From: a virus
Reading direction: 5' to 3' (one strand)
Virus record (IMG/VR): IMGVR_UViG_3300025652_000520
Span: 1-24,584 of that record
Length of the DNA stretch: 24,584 nucleotides
Below the pieces are notes generated by a model that saw only the letters and a list, made by a program, of their open reading frames with translations, was not told the origin of the DNA and did no database searches. The position numbers and the translations under genes are program-made. Within the stretch, counting starts at the first letter, position 1. Every line of letters begins with the position of its first letter. Below are positions 3,960-21,045 of the stretch, in pieces.

Positions 3960-4409
3960 TTAAGCATTGTTGATGTTTTGAACATACTCAACAGTTACAA
4001 AACCCGCACCTGATGTACCCGCAGAAAAATCAATGAAGATCGGAACATCAGTAGCACCAATGTCTGCCCATACGTCAGAATCTGCAATCGTGCCAGTAGA
4101 ACCATACTTGAAAACATTCGCAGCGGTGCCAGCAGCCAAACCAGTGAAGAGGTTTGTTGAAGTGCTGTTAGTGCCCATGCTGATGTTAGCGGCGGCGGTA
4201 GCTGTGGTGATGTTTACGATAATTTCTGTGATCTGACTGTTGGCAGGAATTGTAATGCCTGTATCAGCGGCAGTGGTGGACTGAGTCCATGAACCAGTTT
4301 GTGCCATCTTAACGAAACCGACATTAGAAACGTCTGAACCGTGTGTTGTGCCAGTTGTGTTTTTGATTGTTCCGGCCTTAATAGGACCAGAGAAAGTAGT
4401 TGTCGCCAT
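3960..4409 (-). CDS. Probable head decoration or fibre-like virion protein
   Basis: This encodes 149 residues, rich in Thr, Ala, Ser and Gly with very few charged residues, typical of exposed capsid decoration proteins. It opens MATTTFSGPIKAGTIKNTTG, followed by 'GSDVSNVGFVKMAQTGSW'. I recall similar openings from proteins next to capsid genes in marine phages. The remainder looks like repeated beta strands ('ITEIIVNITTATAAANISMG'). The gene is preceded by 202 bases of noncoding DNA containing the capsid terminator and a possible promoter, so it may be separately transcribed. Confidence 0.68.
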   Translation of the reverse strand: MATTTFSGPIKAGTIKNTTGTTHGSDVSNVGFVKMAQTGSWTQSTTAADTGITIPANSQITEIIVNITTATAAANISMGTNSTSTNLFTGLAAGTAANVFKYGSTGTIADSDVWADIGATDVPIFIDFSAGTSGAGFVTVEYVQNINNA

Positions 4410-4434
4410 GAGTTACTCCTGTCGTGGCTAATGT

Positions 4435-4453
4435 CAGATCCACACTGGATCTG
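4435..4453. repeat. Perfect 7-bp inverted repeat upstream of the decoration gene
   Basis: CAGATCC, five bases, GGATCTG. It lies between the putative -10 box (4467-4472) and the start of the gene at 4409, so in minus-strand RNA it would form a hairpin in the 5' leader. It could stabilise the leader or bind a regulator. The hairpin is seen directly and the role is inference. Confidence 0.5.
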
Positions 4454-4466
4454 TCAGGGTAACACT

Positions 4467-4495
4467 AGCATACACGAAAAAAAGCGAAGCCGCAA
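4467..4495 (-). promoter_or_regulatory. Possible sigma70-like promoter for the decoration and adaptor genes
   Basis: On the minus strand TTGCGG at 4490-4495 is followed, after 17 bases, by TATGCT at 4467-4472. The match is modest (three of six and four of six). The location just after the capsid gene's terminator and 58 bases before the next ATG makes a secondary late promoter plausible. Confidence 0.3.
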
Positions 4496-4555
4496 TTAAG
4501 TCGGCTCCGAGTTTAGGGAGGAAACTTACATCTCGTAAGGTTTTTACAGACTAAC

Positions 4556-4588
4556 AGAAAAAAGGGCGACTGTGAAGCCGCCCTTTAA
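4556..4588 (-). terminator. Intrinsic terminator after the major capsid gene
   Basis: On the minus strand AAAGGGCG, a ten-base loop and CGCCCTTT form an eight-pair stem (4561-4568 with 4579-4586), and the 3' arm runs into six Ts (4558-4563). It begins 25 bases after the capsid stop codon and two bases after the hairpin at 4589-4607. It is the only clear intrinsic terminator seen inside the minus-strand late operon, so it may set capsid-level expression against the genes downstream. Confidence 0.75.
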
Positions 4589-4607
4589 CCCAGTATGGAG
4601 GACTAGG
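4589..4607 (-). promoter_or_regulatory. 3'-UTR hairpin with anti-Shine-Dalgarno loop, copy 1
   Basis: On the minus strand CCTAGT, loop CCTCCAT, ACTGGG form a six-pair stem (one T-G wobble) directly before the terminator of the capsid gene. The 15 bases CTAGTCCTCCATACT are identical to those at 20255-20269, which also lie before an intrinsic terminator on the sense strand. The loop is complementary to ATGGAGG, the core of several leaders in this window (18732, 19276, 20429, 22679). The arms differ between the copies but remain paired. Function is inferred: SD masking or an sRNA seed. Confidence 0.55.
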
Positions 4608-4611
4608 ATTC

Positions 4612-5523
4612 TTATGCGCCTGGTGAACCAAACACACAACGTGGGTCTGAGAAACCGAAGCTGTAACGCTCACGGGCCTTGAACCGCATGTTGCCTGTGT
4701 CGAAGTCTGCTTCCATCTGTGTAGACAGTGGAACACGCTCAAAGTGGACGAATCCACGAGGGGCATCTGTCAAGACAAAGAACGCATCTGGGTCTGTTAG
4801 GAAGTCGTTAACGGCGTAACCGTCAGGAAGCATTCCCATTGACCGAAGTGCGTTGATGTCGTTGTCAGCAGTACCGACACGAAGGTTTGACACCATCAGA
4901 CGCTCTGCAACGAACTGCAACTGACGAGGAATCACCAGCTTTAGACCGCGAAGTGCGACTTTCAGGCCACGCTCATCAACGAATCCAGCAATGCTGATCA
5001 GAGCGTCCTCAAGTGAGGTTTCGTTCAAGTCAGCGGCTGTACCTGGTTCGTTAGCAAACGTGCTACCAGTTGTAAGCGGGTGTGATGCGTCACAGAGTGC
5101 AACACCGTCACCGCCAGCAGATGCACCAGCCGTAAACGCATTGTTTAGAATGCTGGCTGCTTTAACCTGCTTTGTGTGTGCCATTGAACGCGCAAGAGCA
5201 CGAGTGTAGCGAGTAGAGAGACGATCATAAAGATTATCTTCCACAGCTTCTTCCGTGATCGAAAACGCTAGTGCAATGGTTTCATGGTTATACCGAGCGG
5301 TATATGCTTCGTTGGCATCGTCAAAATTGACGGCGGAACCTTCCGACTTAGTCGGAGCGGCGCCAAACCCGGAAAGCATGACCTCTTCTTCAAATGCTCG
5401 ATCTGAAGACTCAGTGGTGAAGATTTCGGCGTGCTGGTTTTCGTACCGGTTGTACTCCATGCCAAACAAGGCATTGAGACCCGGCTCCAGCTCTTTCGCC
5501 AGTTGTGCGCGAGAAATAGCCAT
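4612..5523 (-). CDS. Major capsid protein (Mu gpT-like)
   Basis: The protein has 303 residues. It opens MAISRAQLAKELEPGLNALF, with 'ESSDRAFEEEVMLSGFG' near residue 38, 'YNHETIALAFSITEEAVEDN' near 79 and the ending 'ARERYSFGFSDPRCVFGS'. These are features I know from gpT-like major capsid proteins of marine phages. 'FSDPR' near the C-terminus is the usual signature. AAGGAGG precedes the ATG. It follows scaffold and small virion genes in the usual head order and has its own terminator downstream. It assembles the icosahedral shell around the scaffold. Confidence 0.88.
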   Translation of the reverse strand: MAISRAQLAKELEPGLNALFGMEYNRYENQHAEIFTTESSDRAFEEEVMLSGFGAAPTKSEGSAVNFDDANEAYTARYNHETIALAFSITEEAVEDNLYDRLSTRYTRALARSMAHTKQVKAASILNNAFTAGASAGGDGVALCDASHPLTTGSTFANEPGTAADLNETSLEDALISIAGFVDERGLKVALRGLKLVIPRQLQFVAERLMVSNLRVGTADNDINALRSMGMLPDGYAVNDFLTDPDAFFVLTDAPRGFVHFERVPLSTQMEADFDTGNMRFKARERYSFGFSDPRCVFGSPGA

Positions 5524-18711: not shown

Positions 18712-18744
18712 AAACCCATCAACAACCTGTCTATGGAGGACAAA

Positions 18745-18912
18745 ATGGAATCATGTGATAAATGCGGAACTATCGTGTATGAGCGCAATCTCGCCATGTT
18801 CGGTCATAAGTTTATCTGCCCATCATGCCAAGGATTAAGTGACGAAGAATTAAATGCATATTGGACAGAGCAAGAGCAAGACGAATTACATATTGCTAAT
18901 GGAGGAGCATAA
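18745..18912 (+). CDS. Zinc-ribbon small protein
   Basis: This encodes 55 residues from the ATG at 18745, with GGAGG in the leader seven bases before it. An upstream in-frame ATG overlaps the promoter and is rejected. Two CxxC pairs (C4, C7 and C25, C28) form a zinc ribbon: MESCDKCGTIVYE and 'FICPSCQGLSDEE'. The C-terminus is acidic and ends NGGA, encoded by the GGAGGA used as ribosome site by the next gene. It may bind nucleic acid or a host protein. The substrate is unknown. Confidence 0.72.
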   Translation: MESCDKCGTIVYERNLAMFGHKFICPSCQGLSDEELNAYWTEQEQDELHIANGGA

Positions 18913-19183: not shown

Positions 19184-19228
19184 TTCCTCCATAGGACGGA
19201 AAGAGCGGCAGAAATGTCGCTCTTTTTG
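19181..19228 (+). terminator. Trailer with anti-SD sequence plus intrinsic terminator
   Basis: The trailer TAGTTCCTCCATAGGAC overlaps the stop codon and runs to 19197. AAAGAGCG (19200-19207), a ten-base loop and CGCTCTTT (19218-19225) follow, with a T-rich tail. TTCCTCCATAGG at 19184-19195 is the exact reverse complement of 19274-19285, the leader of the next gene, and ten of these bases complement the leader of this unit (18731-18740). Confidence 0.72.
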
Positions 19229-19258: not shown

Positions 19259-19288
19259 CTTATTATGCAATAACCTATGGAGGAATAG

Positions 19289-20246: not shown

Positions 20247-20252
20247 TTCTAT

Positions 20253-20273
20253 TACTAGTCCTCCATACTAGTA
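20253..20273 (+). promoter_or_regulatory. 3'-UTR hairpin with anti-Shine-Dalgarno loop, copy 2
   Basis: TACTAGT, loop CCTCCAT, ACTAGTA: seven perfect pairs, four bases before the next terminator stem. The loop is the same as in the hairpin after the capsid gene (4589-4607). It lies between two terminators, so a transcript ending at 20308 would carry it near its 3' end. The complementary leaders include 19276-19284 of the same transcription unit. Confidence 0.6.
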
Positions 20274-20277
20274 GGCG

Positions 20278-20308
20278 CCCCAGGGCCAGGCCCTGGGGTT
20301 TTTATTTG
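20278..20308 (+). terminator. Second intrinsic terminator
   Basis: CCCCAGGGCC-A-GGCCCTGGGG (20278-20298), in practice a nine-pair stem with a three-base loop, then TTTTTATTTG. It backs up the terminator at 20220-20246. The near-perfect palindrome might also act in the minus direction. Confidence 0.85.
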
Positions 20309-20309
20309 T

Positions 20310-20377
20310 CCCGAATCCCGACCCGACCCGAAAGCTGCCCGACTCGAGGCAGCTGCGCTAGTGCTGCCCGACCCGAA
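20310..20377. repeat. CCCGAA/CCCGAC repeats, copy 2, with hairpin
   Basis: CCCGAATCCCGACCCGACC and further CCCGA units surround a seven-pair hairpin AGCTGCC/GGCAGCT (20333-20354). As at 18633, it lies between a terminator and a promoter. Confidence 0.75.
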
Positions 20378-20386
20378 TCTTTTTGT

Positions 20387-20415: not shown

Positions 20416-20442
20416 AGTTGAGTAAACTATGGAGGTTACAAA

Positions 20443-21045
20443 ATGCTTAAAATATCGAACATGACGGGCAAGTTAGAGGGCTTCAAAGCGTTGAATACAA
20501 ACACGCTAACAAATCCTTATTGCCAGAAAATGAATGCTGTTGATGATGACAACATCATTTGCAAACATTGCTATAGCGTTGAGATGCTAAACGGATTGCG
20601 CAAAAATTGCGCTCCATCATGGCAACGAAACAGCGACACGCTGTCGGGCGGATTGATTCCCCCGCATATGTTACCGACAATCCTAGACGCATTTTTCAGG
20701 TTTTCCGGACATGGCGAATTAATAAACCTGACCATGTTGGAAAATTTCCACAACATCACGTTACATAATCCGCATTGCTCTTTTGCATTGTGGACAAAGC
20801 GCAAGGGCTGGATTCGCAAATTTTACAGCCAGCATGATAAGCCGGCAAACCTGATTCTTATCTATAGCAATCCGCGCATTGACGCGGTAATGGGCACGCG
20901 ACCAAAATATTTTGATCGCACGTTTAACAATGTATCAGCGGATAGTGTCTTGCCGCAAAACTGTACAGGTCAAAAATGCAAAGATTGTTTGCTTTGCTAT
21001 ACGCCAAACAATGGCGTTACAACAATTGTGGAGGCAGTAAAATGA
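20443..21045 (+). CDS. GP88-like cysteine-rich phage protein
   Basis: The protein has 200 residues. Cysteines are grouped as C27, C40-x2-C43-Y and C56 near the N-terminus, and C174-x4-C179-x2-C182-x2-C185 near the C-terminus. The core has 'LFRFSGHGEL'-like and 'FALWTKR' elements. This layout resembles the mycobacteriophage gp88 family, widespread in phages and of unknown function, which I suspect binds a metal or iron-sulfur cluster. GGAGG precedes the ATG. The stop overlaps the next ATG (ATGA). It might be a radical or nucleotide-modifying enzyme. That is speculation. Confidence 0.62.
   Translation: MLKISNMTGKLEGFKALNTNTLTNPYCQKMNAVDDDNIICKHCYSVEMLNGLRKNCAPSWQRNSDTLSGGLIPPHMLPTILDAFFRFSGHGELINLTMLENFHNITLHNPHCSFALWTKRKGWIRKFYSQHDKPANLILIYSNPRIDAVMGTRPKYFDRTFNNVSADSVLPQNCTGQKCKDCLLCYTPNNGVTTIVEAVK

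Follow-up and report, generated by a model that had tools for sequence, protein, structure and literature searches.

The capsid and YubB-side loci

The window considered here is the whole of a 24,584-nucleotide stretch of viral DNA (IMG/VR record IMGVR_UViG_3300025652_000520, positions 1 to 24,584). Its minus strand carries a gpT-like major capsid gene followed by two short units in tandem and by the Mu-gpT-DE element, and its plus strand carries a related hairpin behind a YubB-like gene (Table 1). The original prediction placed a hairpin with the loop CCUCCAU before an intrinsic terminator after each of these two genes, and both copies are present as described. The 15 bases said to be common to them, CTAGTCCTCCATACT, occur exactly at 4592-4606 (-) and 20255-20269 (+). 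With up to three mismatches allowed, CTAGTCCTCCATACT has three matches in the window against 0.38 expected, and only 1 of 100 shuffles reaches three.

Table 1. Positions of genes, predicted RNA elements and possible target leaders in the window, with repeat sites in other genomes in the last row.
Feature	Position	Strand	Remarks
gpT-like major capsid gene	4612..5523	-	Upstream of units 1 and 2; Phage_capsid_4 1.9e-11, Mu-like_gpT 1e-4
Unit 1 hairpin CCUAGU(CCUCCAU)ACUGGG	4589..4607	-	3' UTR of capsid gene; loop 4595-4601
Unit 1 intrinsic terminator	4557..4586	-	Stem 4586-4561
Unit 2, predicted alphaR8/MmgR-like sRNA unit	4472..4548	-	Best RF00519 match of the record: 23.8 bits, gathering score 41
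Unit 2, possible weak 5' hairpin CUUAC-GAGAU-GUAAG	4525..4539	-	Competes with hairpin AGUUU-CCUCCCU-AAACU
Unit 2, alphaR8 core TTTCCTCCCTAAACTCGG	4507..4524	-	Hallmark 10-mer UUUCCUCCCU at 4515-4524
Unit 2 terminator	4477..4508	-	Directly behind core
Mu-gpT-DE (RF03012)	4407-4459	-	62.6 bits, gathering score 49; direct neighbour downstream of capsid gene
AUGGAGG leader of accessory gene	18733..18739	+	Possible target
AUGGAGG leader	18899..18905	+	Possible target
Third copy UUCCUCCAUAGG	19184..19195	+	No hairpin of its own; before terminator 19200-19228
AUGGAGG leader	19277..19283	+	Possible target
YubB-side hairpin UUACUAGU(CCUCCAU)ACUAGUAG	20252..20274	+	Behind YubB-like gene; loop 20260-20266
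YubB-side terminator	20277..20303	+	Behind YubB-side hairpin; also given as 20277-20299
AUGGAGG leader of gene 20443-21045	20429..20435	+	Possible target
ORFs repeating the capsid N-terminus	G001:C1:48680-48769; G011:C1:52537-52644; G012:C1:9488-9565; G013:C1:45855-45935

The hairpin of unit 1 has a 6-bp stem and stands directly 3' of the capsid stop codon, two bases before its terminator. Folding of this capsid copy gave a z of -3.8, with the CCUCC predicted to be unpaired (P=1.0), and the YubB-side hairpin region gave a z of -5.8. No convincing sigma-70 promoter was found before unit 1 in the window, so that unit 1 would be 3'-UTR-derived. Unit 2, the second unit behind the capsid gene, had been missed by the original prediction. 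The third copy, which offers a 12-nt complement to the leader at 19274-19285, was likewise absent from that two-copy account and adds to the finding.

At gathering score, Mu-gpT-DE was the sole family in an Rfam scan of the window. It is a separate element over the ribosome site of the next gene, and differs from the two units by having no anti-Shine-Dalgarno loop. Filed as an sRNA gene in Rfam, it ends exactly at the AUG of that gene and its CCUG pairs with the CAGG of the ribosome site; it therefore looks like a cis-acting leader. Runs of CCCGAA/CCCGACC repeats fill positions 20305-20385 (+) between the YubB-side terminator and the next promoter, and they recur in relatives. In G001, G011, G012 and G013 (Table 1), a second short frame repeats about 26-36 residues of the capsid N-terminus, inside an ORF of 125-145 aa at another site of the same genome. 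Stop codons break the capsid reading frame at G011:C1:17935-18600, perhaps through an assembly error.

Loop and stems in relatives

Relatives were fetched independently of the motif, by means of the capsid protein, the YubB-like protein and the neighbouring Mu-gpT-DE pattern. The exact 15-mer CTAGTCCTCCATACT was found in 67 stretches of viral contigs. About 50 of these lie at a place of the capsid-side or YubB-side kind, each time with hairpin and terminator, and the rest are scattered matches, as chance predicts. Among the 45 non-redundant stretches between capsid stop and terminator, from capsids that are at least 80% identical, 15 contain CCTCC, whereas dinucleotide shuffles gave 2.5 (maximum of 200 shuffles: 8); it is the commonest 5-mer there. 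It is also the commonest 5-mer in the 40 nt before 328 non-redundant terminators (11% versus 3.7% in control windows). Part of the loci pooled in both counts came from an exact-motif search; as clustering removed redundancy, each motif-search lineage counts once. The position in relatives and this enrichment rule out chance as the origin of the element.

The loop is kept on stems that have changed wholesale. Capsid-side relatives carry it on CCCACA/TGTGGG, TTCCAC/GTGGAA, CCTAAT/ATTAGG and ATCTCT/AGAGAT, and YubB-side relatives, found by protein, on CTAGT/ACTAG, TTATGGT/ACCATAG, TCGTAGT/GCTACGG and CTTGTTG/CAACAAG. In an alignment of 24 hairpins, CCTCC is the sole invariant part; these hairpins were selected for CCTCC, so that the change of the stems is the point. 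Nine hairpins of one register have 95% of their cells paired and a covariation of 0.349 versus 0.181 when shuffled (0/500), and one of their pairs is seen as CG, AU, UA and GU. The differing arms of the two window copies had been read as a sign of compensatory change, which these stems bear out. CCTCC before a terminator lies inside a stem of at least 6 bp in 11 of 37 cases, versus 6% of CCTCC elsewhere, and when the capsid-side units are folded, most lineages leave CCUCC, or its 3' half, without a pairing partner. The original prediction had named a conserved loop, covarying arms and location before terminators as the support to look for in relatives, and all of these were seen.

It is very improbable that the hairpin works as DNA, be it as an inverted repeat for a repressor or recombinase or as a boundary of exchanged gene cassettes. 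The YubB-side copy does come close to a perfect inverted repeat (7-bp arms, 7-bp spacer), and the window has the same 15 bp at two places; however, the conserved part is the spacer and not the arms, and the element always lies on the sense strand, directly before a terminator. G-U pairs also occur in the stems on the sense strand, of which only the inner ones count, since the stem rule allowed G-U. Because the arms vary while the spacer stays, a DNA inverted repeat was rejected.

Two anatomies can be distinguished. In anatomy A, that of unit 1, the CCUCC motif sits in a hairpin loop. Anatomy B has a 5' hairpin, then a single-stranded CCUCCCU stretch and then the terminator, with an extended -10 box just behind the capsid stop. 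Such a box (TGnTAnnnT) was detected in 7 of 16 capsid-linked lineages with CCTCC versus 2 of 38 without it (shuffle mean 1.0). From this arrangement, units of anatomy B look like short genes of their own. At L118:1980-2060, not adjoining the capsid stop, lies a compact unit of the order TGATATAAT-GGATATTCCTCCCCTCGACTAAAGGAGCC-terminator that has an extended -10 box of excellent quality.

Many capsid relatives have a terminator without CCUCC. Several (L226, L101, L244) have, at the capsid-side place, a hairpin without it, as would be expected if the extra hairpin only stabilised the mRNA or aided termination and its loop sequence were irrelevant. Such a plain 3'-end role is quite unlikely for the element as a whole, given that the loop is constant while the stems change, that CCTCC is strongly enriched, and that the second form exposes CCUCCC as a single strand and has a -10 box to itself. 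The unit is absent from cultured pelagiphages; among cultured relatives, the Roseobacter phages CRP-901 and CRP-902 have a hairpin with a pyrimidine loop at the capsid-side place. A search for the nearest annotated phage DNA with a 201-bp region returned none. A host sought via genome contigs gave no firm result: capsid relatives were found in MAGs of mixed phyla, which are probably misbinned viral contigs. The conserved features point to an RNA element, whose predicted sibling units are spread through a marine phage group related by the gpT-like capsid.

Ribosome-binding sites and predicted targets

AUGGAGG occurs 11 times in the window versus 2.6 expected, and no shuffle had as many. The complements of the two hairpins and of the third copy account for three of the 11, and plus-strand leaders for several, in agreement with the earlier statement that the loop is complementary to the core of several leaders. 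About 8 of 11 plus-strand leaders of the window contain TGGAGG, with a duplex with CCUCCAU of about -10.5 to -11 kcal/mol, while the minus-strand structural genes have mostly AGGAG-type sites with about -6 kcal/mol. In the six records holding both parts, 39 of 140 genes encoded opposite the capsid have TGGAGG leaders, versus 5 of 327 on the capsid strand (Fisher 1.7e-17, a value that is overstated because the six records are related and gene starts are partly chosen by ribosome-site strength). Summed counts gave TGGAGG in 68 of 642 leaders of records with a YubB-side unit versus 11 of 394 in the others. Co-variation of loop and ribosome site across phages, in the form of CCUCCC with GGGAGG in more distant relatives, was not found.

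The opposite strand encodes a DNA methyltransferase, and the capsid strand the terminase and portal. On these grounds, it is a fair but tentative reading that the opposite strand holds early genes and the capsid strand late genes. As UGGAGG sites in this phage group lie almost only opposite the capsid strand, a capsid-linked RNA could silence early or accessory genes; targets in the host are just as possible.

The pairing might also act in cis, with CCUCC in read-through transcripts binding the next gene's ribosome site and so confining translation of this gene to transcripts from its own promoter. One 151-nt fold (z -5.0) can pair the third copy with the next leader over 13 bp, and TGGAGG leaders follow the YubB-side units. 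Such control is nevertheless unlikely: in relatives the pairing beyond CCUCCA/UGGAGG is mostly lost while the unit is retained, and the next leader behind the capsid gene has CAGGAG, within Mu-gpT-DE, and not UGGAGG. Dedicated cis pairing with the next leader, which reaches 12 bp in the window, was rejected, as it amounts to only 6-10 bp in most relatives.

The element is thought, with reasonable though not high confidence, to be a conserved RNA hairpin that presents an anti-Shine-Dalgarno CCUCC(A/C) in its loop before a terminator, and to belong to a family of sibling phage sRNA units blocking ribosome sites. Transcription of the capsid operon would stop at these terminators and, in some relatives, might start from the extended -10 box at the capsid stop codon. 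RNAs of 50-80 nt would be left, either as direct products of transcription or after an RNase has cleaved the 3' UTR, and their CCUCC would pair with GGAGG ribosome sites and block translation. Late in infection, the capsid-linked RNA may in this way turn down early and accessory genes of the opposite strand. The original idea of a 3'-UTR-derived sRNA that ties capsid output to accessory genes is partly supported. Host mRNAs with strong ribosome sites are other likely targets.

Probable kinship with alphaproteobacterial small RNAs

Staphylococcal RNAs with C-rich loops had been named as a precedent, but not the nearest one: the anti-Shine-Dalgarno sRNAs of alphaproteobacteria, alphaR8 and alpha-r14/cuckoo, are closer. 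The alpha-r14/cuckoo RNAs keep a constant loop motif while their stems diverge freely (PMC3927594, PMC10746234), and among them the CcsR RNAs arise by cleavage from the 3' portion of the transcript of a protein operon (PMC10253847). Unit 1 resembles the alpha-r14/cuckoo RNAs (NfeR1, SmelA075, CcsR1-4) in its constant loop on freely diverging stems. It differs from them in the loop motif, which is CCUCCUCCC there and CCUCCA(U) or CCUCCC here (CCUCCAU in unit 1), and in number, with three or four motif hairpins there and one per unit plus a terminator here. The present units are moreover phage-borne, and the capsid gene is followed by a tandem of two different ones. Phages of enterobacteria are known to carry small RNAs that act by base pairing, including AsxR, AgvB, StxS and others (PMC12197685); AsxR and AgvB, however, are sponges of host sRNAs, unlike the proposed anti-Shine-Dalgarno units. 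That review of phage sRNAs (PMC12197685) yielded no anti-Shine-Dalgarno family located 3' of a capsid gene.

What defines the alphaR8 family is a 10-mer that follows a weak hairpin and precedes a Rho-independent terminator (PMC12559287). The family includes MmgR of Sinorhizobium and SisA-D of Caulobacter (RF00519, suhB). Unit 2 carries the exact alphaR8 10-mer UUUCCUCCCU, the 18-nt core and a Rho-independent terminator directly behind it, and it shares the length of about 77 nt and the anti-Shine-Dalgarno seed. The CUUAC/GUAAG hairpin can form, yet the MFE fold puts the core in the loop of AGUUU/AAACU. Unit 2 also differs from alphaR8 in sitting in a phage capsid 3' UTR and in scoring 23.8 bits, below the RF00519 gathering score of 41. 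In its core and terminator unit 2 is alphaR8-like (MmgR/SisA), at a score below the Rfam cut-off. Unit 1 (4557-4607, sequence UAGUCCUCCAUA) has no UUUCCUCCCU and reaches 11.3 bits with RF00519; judged by its letters, it is not alphaR8.

Among 29 records, 23 have an RF00519 (suhB/MmgR) match, and 19 of the 23 have their best match immediately 3' of the capsid gene. The top match among relatives, also below the gathering score, has 35.8 bits (E 1.5e-7). In record L302, the model's GUUUCCUCCCU-AGACUU aligned letter for letter apart from a 2-nt insertion. The 18-nt core TTTCCTCCCTAAACTCGG occurs exactly in 30 of 385 alphaproteobacterial genomes (reversed control: 0) and in 6 of the 12 SAR116-family genomes, and the chromosomal copies viewed have a terminator-like stem directly 3'. 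A SAR116 chromosomal copy, at 31 bits, likewise falls below the 41-bit cut-off, so that missing this cut-off is no proof against the kinship of unit 2. The 15-mer TTTCCTCCCTAAACT is frequent in viral contigs; in a second phage group it is placed after the DNA polymerase gene.

The exact alphaR8 core in unit 2 suggests that this bacterial mode of regulation is also used by phages. There is a slightly less than even chance that host mRNAs are the main targets of the units, or that the units compete for Hfq or a host sponge RNA, as phage-borne copies of the alphaR8 regulator, the match to phage leaders being a by-product. Such host-directed mimicry agrees with the 10-mer of unit 2 and the 18 nt it has in common with chromosomal copies, with the alphaR8 cores that follow the DNA polymerase gene in the second phage group, and with SisA, an alphaR8 RNA that represses many targets, probably via the 10-mer (PMC12559287). 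The CCUCCA of unit 1 and of the YubB-side loops, on the other hand, fits the phage's own UGGAGG sites better, as expected of RNAs that block phage ribosome sites.

A broader scenario can be offered tentatively, as one that is rather doubtful. Marine alphaproteobacterial phages may have taken over an alphaR8-type sRNA and multiplied it behind capsid, DNA polymerase and accessory cassettes. UGGAGG would then mark early genes, which CCUCCA RNAs from the capsid transcript would shut off as a timing device, and the alphaR8 copy would act on host mRNAs. If the small-RNA reading is right, annotation has overlooked a host-type class of regulatory RNA in widespread marine phages, and these phages govern gene timing or host translation through RNAs released from the 3' end of the capsid transcript. 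Phages of alphaproteobacteria would then also supply a concrete instance of temporal control by RNA, and could offer alphaR8 sRNA genes a path from one bacterium to another. No report of alphaR8 in phages was found in the literature searched, which was open-access only; relative to it, alphaR8 units in phages and the capsid 3' UTR as their home would be new.

In the second phage group, an alphaR8 core and terminator stand directly behind the DNA polymerase gene at L446:2640-2800 and in L415, L450, L470 and others. This polymerase is related to that of phages DSL-LC04 and HTVC023P.
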